Shown here piece after piece: positions 1 to 61,599 of a stretch of 64,000 bases of DNA. Every line of letters starts with the position of its first letter. The first letter of the stretch is position 1. The DNA is from Candidatus Zixiibacteriota bacterium. GTDB taxonomy: Bacteria > Zixibacteria > MSB-5A5 > GN15 > FEB-12. Location of the stretch: assembly GCA_022571985.1 (NCBI GenBank), contig JACZWU010000009.1:1-64000 (forward strand). Direction: 5' to 3'. A program made the translations under genes and the position numbers. The notes beneath the pieces were generated by a model that had not been told where the DNA came from, searched no databases, and was given only the letters and a program-made list of their open reading frames with translations.

Positions 1-403
1 CACATTGAACCTTGAGCTTCTCTCGCTCAGATGTGTTGAGATTAACCAGTAACTCACTGTTTATCTGATTGACCATGTTAAGCATAAATCGCGCTTTGGT
101 CTTAAGTTCTTTCTCATCCGATGCAAATTCAAAACTGGAAAATCCAATACTGGCATCGCCGACGTGGCAATTCACGCAGCGAACACCAAGGGCCGATGTA
201 AATTTTTTCATAATACCGACCAATTTGGATTTCGTGATATCCTGTGGAAGAACTTTAAGGTTCTCAAACTTGTCCGGAATCTGCGCTCGAATAGTACTTT
301 GGCCTGCAAGCAAAAAGAAAACAAAGGCAAGTGCGAATATCATAACTTGTTCGCGCACCTTCCTCGTAGATTGATGGCTGTCTTTAATTGTATTTGGTCT
401 CAT
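1..403 (-). CDS. c-type cytochrome, reaction-centre-cytochrome-like (3' end outside window)
   Basis: The reading frame opens at an ATG at 403 on the minus strand and runs off the left edge, giving 134 residues. Residues about 20-40 form a signal peptide (hydrophobic run, then a QS..RAQ cleavage region). A single heme-binding motif CVNCH lies at residues 76-80, inside a segment (VLPQDITKSKLVGIMKKFTS, then ALGVRCVNCHVG) typical of small periplasmic multi- or mono-heme proteins related to the photosynthetic reaction-centre cytochrome subunit. This fold is widespread in non-phototrophs, so it does not indicate photosynthesis. A GAAAGGA ribosome site lies about 10 nt upstream of the ATG. The function is periplasmic electron transfer by family knowledge; the partner is unknown because the neighbouring gene is off the window. 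Confidence 0.8.
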   Translation of the reverse strand, partial: MRPNTIKDSHQSTRKVREQVMIFALAFVFFLLAGQSTIRAQIPDKFENLKVLPQDITKSKLVGIMKKFTSALGVRCVNCHVGDASIGFSSFEFASDEKELKTKARFMLNMVNQINSELLVNLNTSEREKLKVQC

Positions 404-515
404 AAGGATAGTATCCTTTCAAAATTAATTTTAAATCAGGCTTAAAAAAGTATCAGATTAGATTACGCAGAACAATCAGAAAAGTTACAGGTCTATTGGT
501 GCTTCAATATCTTGG

Positions 516-660
516 CTTTCCAGCTTTAGTCCCGTGTAATCTCGGGGCGAAGGCTGGAATCCATCTTTCTTGCAGTCACCCCGAGCCTTATGTCTTTCCA
601 GCGCAGGCTGGAATCCATCTTTTTTTCCGTCATTCCCGCGCAGGCGGGAATCCATCTTCT
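516..660. repeat. Three adjacent GGAATCCATCTT palindromes, one filled and two empty
   Basis: Positions 516-568 read CTTTCCAGC, then an inner hairpin module TTTAGTCCCGTGTAATCTCG-GGGCGA, then AGGCTGGAATCCATCTTT. Positions 594-620 carry the same outer arms joined directly by GCA (an empty version). Positions 631-657 carry CATTCCCGC-GCA-GGCGGGAATCCATCTT, again empty. The stretch 404-789 contains these palindromes, the next repeat and no gene that I can support. Confidence 0.85.
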
Positions 661-5942: not shown

Positions 5943-6003
5943 CGTCACCCTGAGCTTGCTTTAGTCCCAAGTTCGCTTTGCCGGACGGGGGTCGAAGTGT
6001 CAT
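5943..6003. repeat. Nested palindrome: CACCCTGA arm with inner TTTAGTCCC module
   Basis: GTCACCCTGAGCTTGC is followed by TTTAGTCCCAAGTTCGCTTT and a CCGGACGGGGGTCGAAGTGTC arm. It is a diverged filled copy of the CTTCGAC-type palindrome just after the symporter stop codon. Confidence 0.6.
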
Positions 6004-26400: not shown

Positions 26401-26448
26401 AAATAGCGGCGCAGGGACTCGAACCCCGGACCCACGGATTATGATTCC
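26401..26448. repeat. Proximal attachment site within tRNA-Met
   Basis: The 48 bases from the tRNA 3' flank through the anticodon loop are repeated directly at 23951-24033 (with an insertion) and, in part, at 21111-21142. Confidence 0.75.
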
Positions 26449-26477
26449 GTTGCTCTAACCAACTGAGCTACGCCGCC
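26404..26477 (-). tRNA. tRNA-Met (CAU anticodon)
   Basis: The minus strand folds as a full cloverleaf: acceptor GGCGGCG / CGCCGCT (first pair G-U), D arm GCTC...GAGC, anticodon stem ACGGA/TCCGT with loop ATCATAA (anticodon CAU), variable GGGTC region and T arm CGGGG-TTCGAGT-CCCTG. The 3' CCA is not encoded. Elongator Met is the best fit; tRNA-Ile2 with a CAU anticodon is the alternative because lysidine cannot be seen in DNA. Its 3' half doubles as the attachment site of the neighbouring integrase. Confidence 0.9.
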
Positions 26478-31750: not shown

Positions 31751-31768
31751 ACTGCTGCTAAAGTTTTG

Positions 31769-31823
31769 TCATTCCCGCGTTTTAATCCCGCGCGAGGTCG
31801 CGGGGCAGGCGGGAATCCATCTT
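31769..31823. repeat. Filled nested palindrome after speE
   Basis: CATTCCCGCG, inner module TTTTAATCCCGCGCGAGGTC-GCGGGGCA, then GGCGGGAATCCATCTTT. It is the filled version of the empty copy at 631-657. Confidence 0.8.
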
Positions 31824-37091: not shown

Positions 37092-37110
37092 TTCCCCAAT
37101 AGTCGCCCCC

Positions 37111-37353
37111 CTTTCTGTCTTTCCAACGACCTCCTCTGTCTTTCCACCTCGTTGGTCCCGAGCGTAGTCTCGGGAGCGCAGGCTGGAATCCATCTTTGCT
37201 ATTTTGTCATCCCCTCCTTACTTGTCATCCCCGCTTTAGTCCCGTGTACTCACGGGGAGCAGTCGGGAATCCATCTTAATACAATAGTCACCCTGACTTT
37301 AGTCCCGAGTCTTGCCTCGGGAGCCTGCGCCAGTCCCGAACCGGGGTCGAAGG
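37111..37353. repeat. Cluster of nested palindromes after valS
   Basis: At least four units: a CTTTCCA...GCAGGCTGGAATCCATCTTT copy filled with TTGGTCCCGAGCGTAGTCTC (37141-37196); TCATCCCCGC filled with TTTAGTCCCGTGTACTCACG (37225-37277); and CACCCTGAC filled with TTTAGTCCCGAGTCTTGCCT up to GGGGTCGAAGGGTG (37287-37355). The inner module is the same in different outer arms. Confidence 0.8.
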
Positions 37354-37367
37354 GTGTACCGCTCATC

Positions 37368-37472
37368 AATGGGTTCGTTTTGTCATATTTTACTTTCCCG
37401 TTATCAGAATCTGTTGGCTTTTTGCTTTTAACGCAAATTCCCCCGGGAATAGTTATAGCCGCTTTATTTTAG
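37368..37472 (+). repeat. ~100-bp dispersed repeat, copy 1
   Basis: From AATGGGTTCGTTTTGTCATA to GCCGCTTTATTTT it matches 61340-61447 in inverted orientation and, over ~35 bases, 57964-58001. Read on its minus strand it is coding-like (KSKKPTDSDNGKVKYDKTNP). Confidence 0.7.
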
Positions 37473-37541
37473 GGCAGCGCAGTATTTTGCAGTGATTCAT
37501 GAGTTAATTCGCGGTGGGGTTCTACCGCCCACTAATATTCA

Positions 37542-56654: not shown

Positions 56655-56815
56655 CAGTCATCCTGACTTTAGTCCCGAGTCTTGCCTCGGGAGCTGAGTC
56701 GAAGGATGCCGACTACATTGTTGTGGGTGGCAGATGTCCTCATCTGCCCCTTCACTTGACAGAAGATGGATTCCAGCCTGCGCCCCTCTTAGGGACTAAA
56801 GCTGGAAAGACAGCA
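56655..56815. repeat. Mixed repeat cluster between rpmB and the flagellin gene
   Basis: 56656-56714: GTCATCCTGAC filled with TTTAGTCCCGAGTCTTGCCT, then TGAGTCGAAGGATG. 56722-56751: GTGGGTGGCAGATGTCCTCA-TCTGCCCC, CATCTGCCCC family. 56764-56812: inverse-orientation GATGGATTCCAGC...GGGACTAAAGCTGGAAAG, a filled GGAATCCATC unit. No gene is supported in 56555-56834. Confidence 0.75.
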
Positions 56816-57882: not shown

Positions 57883-57955
57883 GCCTTTCCAGCGGAGGCT
57901 GGAATCCATCTTCGCCTTTTCTGTCTTTCCAAACTTGTTTTGGAATCCATCTTTA
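57883..57955. repeat. Two empty GGAATCCATCTT palindromes
   Basis: CTTTCCAGC-GGA-GGCTGGAATCCATCTTC (57885-57912) and CTTTCCAAAC-TT-GTTTTGGAATCCATCTTT (57925-57953). The arms differ in the second unit but keep their pairing. Confidence 0.75.
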
Positions 57956-61236: not shown

Positions 61237-61599
61237 AGCTCGCATATTCCGAACGAGTGAGCCCGAGTGCCCCATCCGCTTGCGGTGGGATTCTTTCCCA
61301 GTTCAAATTAACTCGTAAATCACGGCAAACTACTCCGCCACCCCAATATAGAGCAGCTATGACTTTGGCTGGGTGAATTTGCGACAAGAGCAAAAAGCCT
61401 ACAGGTTCTGATAGTGGGAAAGTAAAATATGACAAAACGAAGCCATTTGAAGATGGATTCCCGCCTTCGCGGGAAAGACAGAAAAGCGAAGATGGGTTCC
61501 AACCTCCGCCCCGTGACTACACGGGACTAAAGTTGGAAAGGCAATAAAAAAGCCCCAACTTTCGTCGGGGCTTTTTTGTGTCAGGCTATAGATTCAATA
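61237..61599. repeat. Repeat-filled spacer with copy 2 of the ~100-bp repeat and two palindromes
   Basis: 61340-61447 is the inverted full copy of the repeat at 37368. Then GATGGATTCCCGCCTTCGCG-GGAAAGAC (61452-61479, empty) and GATGGGTTCCAAC filled with a CGTGACTACACGGGACTAAA hairpin and GTTGGAAAG (61490-61540). No stop interrupts a plus-strand frame (KKPTGSDSGKVKYDKTKPF, then EDGFPPSRERQ) across repeat and palindromes until 61545. Confidence 0.7.
61546..61577. terminator. Bidirectional terminator
   Basis: AAAAAAGCCCC (61546-61556) and GGGGCTTTTTT (61567-61577) pair fully over a 10-nt loop, giving U tracts on both strands. It ends the AsnRS-like gene from the right. Confidence 0.88.

Follow-up and report, generated by a model that had tools for sequence, protein, structure and literature searches.

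Tiny hairpin modules, ranging from 15 to 33 nt and mostly of 19-26 nt, lie inside other palindromes in three congeneric Candidatus Zixiibacteriota MAGs, where they are gained or lost as units at orthologous sites and occupy at least seven unrelated outer families, with no tie to one outer arm. They are probably tiny mobile hairpins of a REP-like kind, which have entered other REP palindromes time and again, and with precision, at the 5' edge of the loop, a judgement which concerns the insertion and leaves the enzyme aside. Insertion is the best supported explanation, its polarity being unproven case by case. The window is a stretch of 64,000 nucleotides, C15:1-64000 of the MAG G000 (2.93-Mb assembly, 17 contigs); G001 and G002 are the sister genomes, and L-numbers denote loci extracted from G000, sister and other genomes. 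A protein adjoining one of the sites marks two of the congeneric genomes as Candidatus Zixiibacteriota MAGs.

Palindromes of the window

Direct reading bore out the original prediction of nested palindromes with empty and filled copies. The empty copies predicted at 594, 631 and 57885 are present, and a further one, on the minus strand, had been missed. In the lists, CM denotes the covariance model A2, built from 24 filled copies, and z values refer to folding as ssDNA of the interval given.

594-616, plus strand: empty palindrome CTTTCCAGC-GCA-GGCTGGAATCC (sequence, CM match; fold z = -4.11, 592-618)
631-653, plus strand: empty palindrome CATTCCCGC-GCA-GGCGGGAATCC (sequence, CM match)
57885-57907, plus strand: empty palindrome CTTTCCAGC-GGA-GGCTGGAATCC (sequence, CM match)
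61455-61477, minus strand: empty palindrome CTTTCCCGC-GAA-GGCGGGAATCC (sequence, CM match)

Their loop had been called a 3-nt GCA or GGA; the empty copies exist as such, but a 4-nt GNAG describes the loop better. The outer palindrome, O1, reads (T/C)GTC-[AT]TTCC[CAT]G...GGAATCCATCTT, and its empty loops are GNAG where the stem is CGC/GCG or CGA/TCG, or AGTGYCGTTG where the arms are TCGGG. The GTCATTCC/GTCTTTCC outer arms correspond to the CGTC-tagged REPs described by Di Nocera et al. (2013), for which the published account gives a (T/C)GTC tag, an 8-bp stem starting AT, a 4-nt loop and a CCA tail (PMC3733652). The empty palindromes agree with it in tag, stem, loop and tail: the unpaired tag 5' of the stem (CGTC, TGTC or CCTC) is found as TGTC or CGTC before ATTCCCGC in many copies, and an 8-9-bp stem from AT, a 4-5-nt loop and a CCA-like tail are found in ATTCCCGC-GCAG-GCGGGAAT-CCA and ATTCCACG-CTTGA-CGTGGAAT-CCA. 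In the GTCTTTCC copies of O1 a T is in place of A, and in the CTTTCC copies the first stem pair is gone. Others among the outer palindromes are GTAG-tagged or RAYT-flanking.

The filled copies are the following:

516-562, plus strand: filled CGTC-type palindrome, arms CTTTCCAG / CTGGAATCC (CM match 509-567, 78.8 bits; fold z = -4.64, 514-565)
524-547, plus strand: inner module M1 of the preceding copy, CTTTAGTCCCGTGTAATCTCGGGG, 24 nt (pattern search)
5946-6001, plus strand: palindrome CACCCTGAGCTTG..TCGAAGTGTC (CACCCTGA arms), with a 33-nt module at 5959-5991
31770-31818, plus strand: filled CGTC-type palindrome, M2 TTTTAATCCCGCGCGAGGTCGCGGGG at 31780-31805 (CM match; z = -2.49, 31768-31820)
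37140-37191, plus strand: palindrome CTTTCCA..GCGCAGGCTGGAATCC, with a 29-nt module (..GGTCCCGAG...CTCGGGA) at 37147-37175 (CM match)
37226-37272, plus strand: filled palindrome of the AGCAGTCGGG loop type, M1 at 37234-37257 (CM match)
37289-37356, plus strand: palindrome CACCCTGA..TCGAAGGGTG with two modules, 37297-37322 (26 nt) and 37328-37346 (19 nt); fold z only -1.47
56659-56708, plus strand: palindrome CATCCTGA..TCGAAGGATG (CACCCTGA arms), with a 26-nt module at 56667-56692 (z = -3.65)
56768-56809, minus strand: filled palindrome, 19-nt module CTTTAGTCCCTAAGAGGGG at 56783-56801 (sequence, pattern search)
61495-61540, minus strand: filled palindrome, arms CTTTCCAA / TTGGAACC, M1 at 61509-61532 (CM match)

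The copies at 516-562, 37226-37272 and 61495-61540 (minus strand) had been predicted as filled, while those at 37140-37191 and 56768-56809 (minus strand, 19-nt insert) had been overlooked. At the latter site (56763) both sister species are filled as well, and the copy is common to the three. The same inner module had also been placed at 31769; the insert at 31770-31818 turned out to be a relative, TTTTAATCCCG...CGGGG, lying 2 nt deeper in the loop. The claim that one module also sits in unrelated arms held, since the CACCCTGA arms at 5946-6001, 37289-37356 and 56659-56708 contain CTTTAGTCCC modules.

As to the rest of the window, a tRNA gene (26404-26477, minus strand) was its sole Rfam match at the gathering threshold. 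The contig start, window 1-640 (509 region compared with L004), is similar to DNA close to where contig C1 ends and also to L118 of G001, a shared repeat which may have broken the assembly.

Anatomy and distribution of the inner modules

The modules form a superfamily with a short unpaired 5' tail (about 3-6 nt) ending in G or A, followed by a hairpin TCC[CT]...GGG, and lie at the 5' side of the outer loop or, inverted, at its 3' side. M1, CTTTAGTCCC...GGGG, occurs mainly with one of three apices (GTGTANTCAC, TATAAG-like and GTGCGAAGACAC) and is usually found after TTCCNG and before [CA]GNAG or AGTGCCGTTG. M2, TTTTAATCCC...GGGG, is usually placed 2 nt further along, between CATTCCCGCG and CAGG, CATTCCCGAG and CAGTC, or CATTCCACG and CTTGACGTGG. 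The bases before the inner stem are AGTC, AATC, GGTC or CGTC, possibly a degenerate CGTC tag that falls short of the full definition, and no GTAG tag stands directly before the module in the copies inspected. In the covariance alignment 97% of the cells of the inner helix are paired, with few covarying pairs, and 82% of those of the outer helix, in which one pair shows compensatory changes from C-G to A-U.

The number of copies exceeds chance. In the 2.93-Mb genome the pattern TTTAGTCCCGN{3,30}CGGG gave 36 rows, overlaps included, while its reversed control gave 1, and CTTTAGTCCCN{4,16}GGGG gave 30, 17 and 21 rows in the three congeners, the control matching 0. At E <= 0.001, the covariance model matched 76 times in G000, 34 in G001, 48 in G002 and 9 in G008, with no match in the other 10 of the 14 genomes searched. 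The matches take in empty copies (35 and 40 nt) and filled ones (46-87 nt); after deduplication, the matches within the extracted loci, filled or other as against empty, numbered 42/23 in G000, 36/6 in G002 and 28/8 in G001, ratios which are biased because the loci were mostly picked as filled.

Exact searches for split palindromes, together with the RTCCYGAGYGNAGYCGARGGG contexts, placed modules of the form [tail][G/A]TCC[CT]...GGG inside O1, CATTCCACG..CGTGGAATCC, CACCCTGAGC..TCGAAGGGTG and AACCCACC..GGTGGGCCACC; further outer families are the GTAG REP GTAGGTCAGGA..TCCTGAC, the CCCACCGCAAGC and CCCACAGC palindromes, and GGGCAGA..TCTGCC. An inner module always co-varying with a single type of outer arm would, by the original prediction, have told against it, and no such co-variation was seen. 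M1 itself, when the places from the pattern search were compared by eye with CM matches and contexts, lay within the CGTC-REP (O1) arms at 62 of 64 distinct places (28/28 in G000, 16/16 in G001, 18/20 in G002), the two exceptions having the right arm only (G002:C7:9742) or being degenerate (G002:C21:6194). Since no free-standing copy occurs among the M1 places of the three genomes, movement of M1 without an outer palindrome cannot be shown. Of the RTCCYGAGYGNAGYCGARGGG places in G000, as read by eye, 21/24 are nested, in six outer families, two are free-standing CACCCTGA-type palindromes and one is without a clear outer arm. For the RTCCYGAG.. places, stems of at least 6 bp enclosed 6/24 in G000, compared with 6.2% in shuffles, and 1/7 in G002; these statistics are weak alone, so that nesting at such places is claimed from the reading of the arms.

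The RTCCYGAG.. pattern occurs in 25/132 genomes of the phylum searched, the genus included, and abundantly in genus g31 (G055-G059). In the few contexts read there, it is mostly free-standing, as CGTC followed by GTCCTGAG..CGAAGGGCGAC, and at least one copy is nested in a GTAG REP (L228). These free-standing relatives with CGTC before the stem suggest that the module may descend from a CGTC-type REP.

Broader scans added support only. The last split-palindrome scan returned 120 rows, of which 46 match the loose module motif, most of the remaining 74 being coding DNA matched by chance; split palindromes with at least two different empty copies made up 51 rows (phase duplicates included, judged by eye), 49 of them in REP palindromes. 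An earlier version with exact short arms was swamped by tandem repeats, and a perfect-stem hairpin scan of 264 kb, which gave few stems of at least 8 bp and did not isolate the family, was dropped.

Presence and absence between sister species

Gapped orthologous alignments (90, 130 and 58 kb aligned for the three genome pairs) were scanned for gaps of 10-70 nt on both sides of which identity reached 75% or more. Of the 15 rows, 13 distinct, three were modules; they were the sole such hairpins, and all three lay inside palindromes. In the first case (L140/L126), 26 nt (GTTTTAATCCCTAGCGCAGTCTAGGG) stand between CATTCCAC and GCTTGACGTGG in G000 and are missing from G001; in the second (L033/L097), 26 nt stand between CACCCTTCGA and CAGGCTCAGGATG in G000 and are missing from G002; in the third (L128/L113), 19 nt stand between CTTTCCA and GCGGAGG in G001 and are missing from G002. 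In each of them one G of the module strand, which for L033/L097 is the minus strand of the locus, can be assigned to either side of the boundary, which means that the module lands after a G or that one G is duplicated. A fourth case (L055/L047), just downstream of orthologous RAYT genes, has the 24-nt CCCTTCGGCAAGCTCAGGACTGGG between CCCA and CAGCAAGCTGTGGG in G001 and not in G000, with a right flank that diverges soon past the palindrome.

Vertical descent also occurs, as in a 55-nt copy identical in L133 and L123. The original prediction would have been refuted by filled copies due to vertical descent only, and the sister genomes show presence and absence at orthologous sites as well. At the first locus G002 has a different palindrome. 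At the third the palindrome is altogether absent from G000, which is compatible with stepwise accumulation. The limits of this evidence are that there are three clean cases only, none rooted by an outgroup, and that several pairs judged orthologous have shuffled flanks; precise loss by slippage could possibly explain any single case, and some cases may be gene conversion.

Three further comparisons were left uncounted. Window position 624 (empty, 631-653) was set against L118 of G001, which has a 26-nt insert and the same left flank; its right flank diverges beyond GGAATCCA, and L118 is also like L004. In L131/L096 (19 nt) the right flank is orthologous and the left one shuffled, and the alignment at window 31770 was unusable, the three species having different palindromes there.

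Entire palindrome clusters come and go too: window 37109-37541, about 430 bp with three filled palindromes, corresponds to about 40 bp in G002 (L111:3236-3272). Repeats of about 126 bp and about 190 bp, of coding-like DNA, also vary in copy number between the sister species (L016/L095/L121; L048/L050).

Probable insertion and its alternatives

The process that we infer would be the insertion of a module at the 5' edge of an outer REP loop, and sometimes of one module into another, so that gain rather than loss would account for the filled alleles. Many outer families, inverted copies and a broken closing pair in the AG..TC loop types all speak for it. In copies with the right arm AGNAGTCGGG, the module's own C replaces the outer closing A and the pair is broken, 8/24 being unpaired at columns 16/52, which is expected of an insert and awkward for a deletion. 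The module is inverted at the 3' loop side in six copies (L141, L113, L114, L145, L146 and L147), and one palindrome (L128) carries modules in both orientations, as would fit one target read on either strand. Nesting reaches three levels in L139, L143 and L108. The module would prefer the loop of an extruded single-stranded hairpin, for instance on the lagging strand, and once inside an outer REP might also spread with it as one nested unit. The original suggestion of a small element targeting hairpin loops, or of a modular REP-like family, is thus supported by the presence/absence in sister species and by the many outer arms, active targeting of loops being inferred.

The alternative that survives best, though we consider it rather unlikely, is an exchange between palindromes without a dedicated transposase, in which template switching or gene conversion would swap the apical part. 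Intergenic regions are in fact dense palindrome mosaics whose orthologous versions differ by cassette-like swaps, and one locus may carry different inserts across species: the same outer palindrome holds different modules in L133/L123 and L099, and the module is forward in L008 and inverted in L146. Moreover, an outer and an inner part may return together as one nested unit: L144 has the fourth insert within the same outer palindrome, and L164 has it within a similar one. Against such an exchange stand the exact boundaries, with at most one ambiguous base, the lack of flanking homology for a homologous route into a new outer family, and the want of donors in the DNA compared: the first case has no donor with the same outer palindrome and a close insert, its closest relative (2 mismatches) lying in a different outer palindrome, and the second insert is found nowhere else.

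A single old family of long hairpins, whose empty copies would be deletion derivatives lacking the apical part, is improbable. Hairpins are known to lose their tips by slippage, and some filled copies fold as a near-continuous helix (window 514-565). Nevertheless, the presence of the same modules in at least seven unrelated outer families largely refutes this explanation, and neither the closing pair broken by the module in AG..TC loop types nor the inverted copies at the opposite loop side agree with it. The empty outer palindromes, besides, match REPs known without inserts in other bacteria, in the account given in PMC3733652.

A reverse transcriptase copying the module from RNA is very improbable. 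The size, hairpin form and nesting of the modules resemble those reported for cyanobacterial SDRs, for which an RNA-mediated route is said to have been proposed earlier; nevertheless, no reverse transcriptase domain (PF00078, E <= 0.001) was found in any of the three genomes, with 3/14 control genomes positive, although a missing gene is possible in MAGs that are 93-98% complete. Selection of longer nested hairpins at the RNA level, as terminators or mRNA 3' ends, with modularity as a secondary trait, would hardly be credible: some copies do lie at gene ends, and the first presence/absence case overlaps the 3' end of a coding frame in L140, but the module sequence shared across outer families, the inverted copies and the exact presence/absence would be left unexplained.

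If modules are inserted, catalysis might be provided in trans by an HUH/Y1 enzyme of the RAYT kind, a suggestion that we make tentatively. RAYT genes (PF01797) occur in 20/20 relatives searched, with 3 in G000. Flanking DNA was read for 13 RAYTs of the genus and 20 of other genera, among which L210 yielded no frame and L207 lacked the upstream flank. It contains GTAG REPs or palindromes of other kinds, and several of these belong to the outer families in which modules sit; in L055 a module lies inside one RAYT-flanking palindrome. The RAYT link sought in the original prediction was not supported, none of these places having modules or CGTC REPs (O1) on both sides of the gene, and no dedicated enzyme for the modules was found. 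From the genes and hairpins present, an HUH/RAYT mechanism acting in trans on extruded hairpins would be plausible, with template switching as its main rival.

Relation to known systems

In Nostoc punctiforme, Elhai et al. are said to have described in 2008 SDRs of 21-27 nt, several with hairpin structure, nested in one another. Mitochondrial double-hairpin elements are likewise short mobile palindromic DNA. The SDRs, cited in PMC3116915 and PMC4390886, the latter with an SDR5 in HIP1, are the nearest precedent for the modules, followed by the yeast mitochondrial GC clusters (PMC4478555). The modules are like the SDRs, as these are reported, in size (mostly 19-26 nt), repetition and hairpin formation, and like an SDR-type element in their exact presence/absence, which would reflect gain, and in their three-level nesting into themselves. 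Unlike them, they belong to another phylum, target REP hairpin loops, form one superfamily in at least seven outer families and come without a reverse transcriptase domain found in the genomes. The GC clusters, as presented in PMC4478555, are short mobile palindromic DNA that merge and shuffle, with short direct repeats at their ends, but they are organellar, longer and flanked by AG or ACT duplications, compared with at most one ambiguous base here.

REPs or dimers inside palindromes have also been reported, namely variabilis GTAG-15, T. roseum GTAG-23 and H. neapolitanus CGTC-1 (PMC3733652). The cases given there are whole REPs or dimers within palindromes, whereas here a 15-33-nt module lies in the REP's own loop, in many families and with exact empty alleles in sister species. 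The statement that no family is built from exchangeable nested hairpins was therefore too strong, in view of the Nostoc SDRs (PMC4390886), the REPs in palindromes (PMC3733652) and the GC clusters (PMC4478555). As regards the RAYT/GTAG-REP systems, in the form described for them (PMC6006769) and for REPINs (PMC3116915), RAYTs are abundant here and their flanking GTAG REPs or palindromes partly serve as outer palindromes, but the module is without a GTAG tag and lies on both sides of no RAYT read. In the limited collection of literature searched, no paper listed describes such modules in Zixibacteria or reports 15-33-nt hairpins within REP loops.

The modules point to some of the smallest mobile DNA known. 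It is conceivable, if doubtful, that they represent a class of mobile DNA (about 15-33 nt) that is directed to a structure, namely the loop which a DNA hairpin of nearly any REP family presents, and that is moved by an enzyme so far unrecognised for this role; REP palindromes, even those without a known transposase, would then be the places where still smaller elements land. The movement of CGTC-tagged REPs and the origin of new REP types are treated as open questions in PMC3733652. In this context, tiny hairpins exchange among CGTC REPs, GTAG REPs and other palindromes, and the empty and filled alleles held by sister species are exact substrates to tell HUH/RAYT enzymes from replication template switching or other movers. 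Precise, nested mobility of the SDR kind would then extend beyond the cyanobacteria, and one way in which REP loops become diverse would be shown.

Related patterns were noted elsewhere. Across Zixibacteria, RAYT genes (L047, L048, L049, L050-L059; L198-L217) have many different flanking palindromes, mostly GTAG-tagged, and two GTAG REPs, GTCGAAACC..GGTTTCGAC and GTCAGGA..TCCTGAC, are alike in their apical part (CCGCCTCCTGGG / CCGCCTCCTTGG), which is once more a modular pattern. In G018 (L180-L183), another family has recurrent CTTTAGTCCCG..AGCTGGGG hairpins enclosed by CCCAACC..TTGGG arms, the six rows, in a differing CCCAACC..GGTTGGG context, being possibly unrelated to M1. In other genera (L209, L213, L228), GTCGAAA..TTTCGAC REPs, RAYT-flanking or other, carry longer and different apical inserts than their neighbours, which suggests that loop filling extends beyond this genus.
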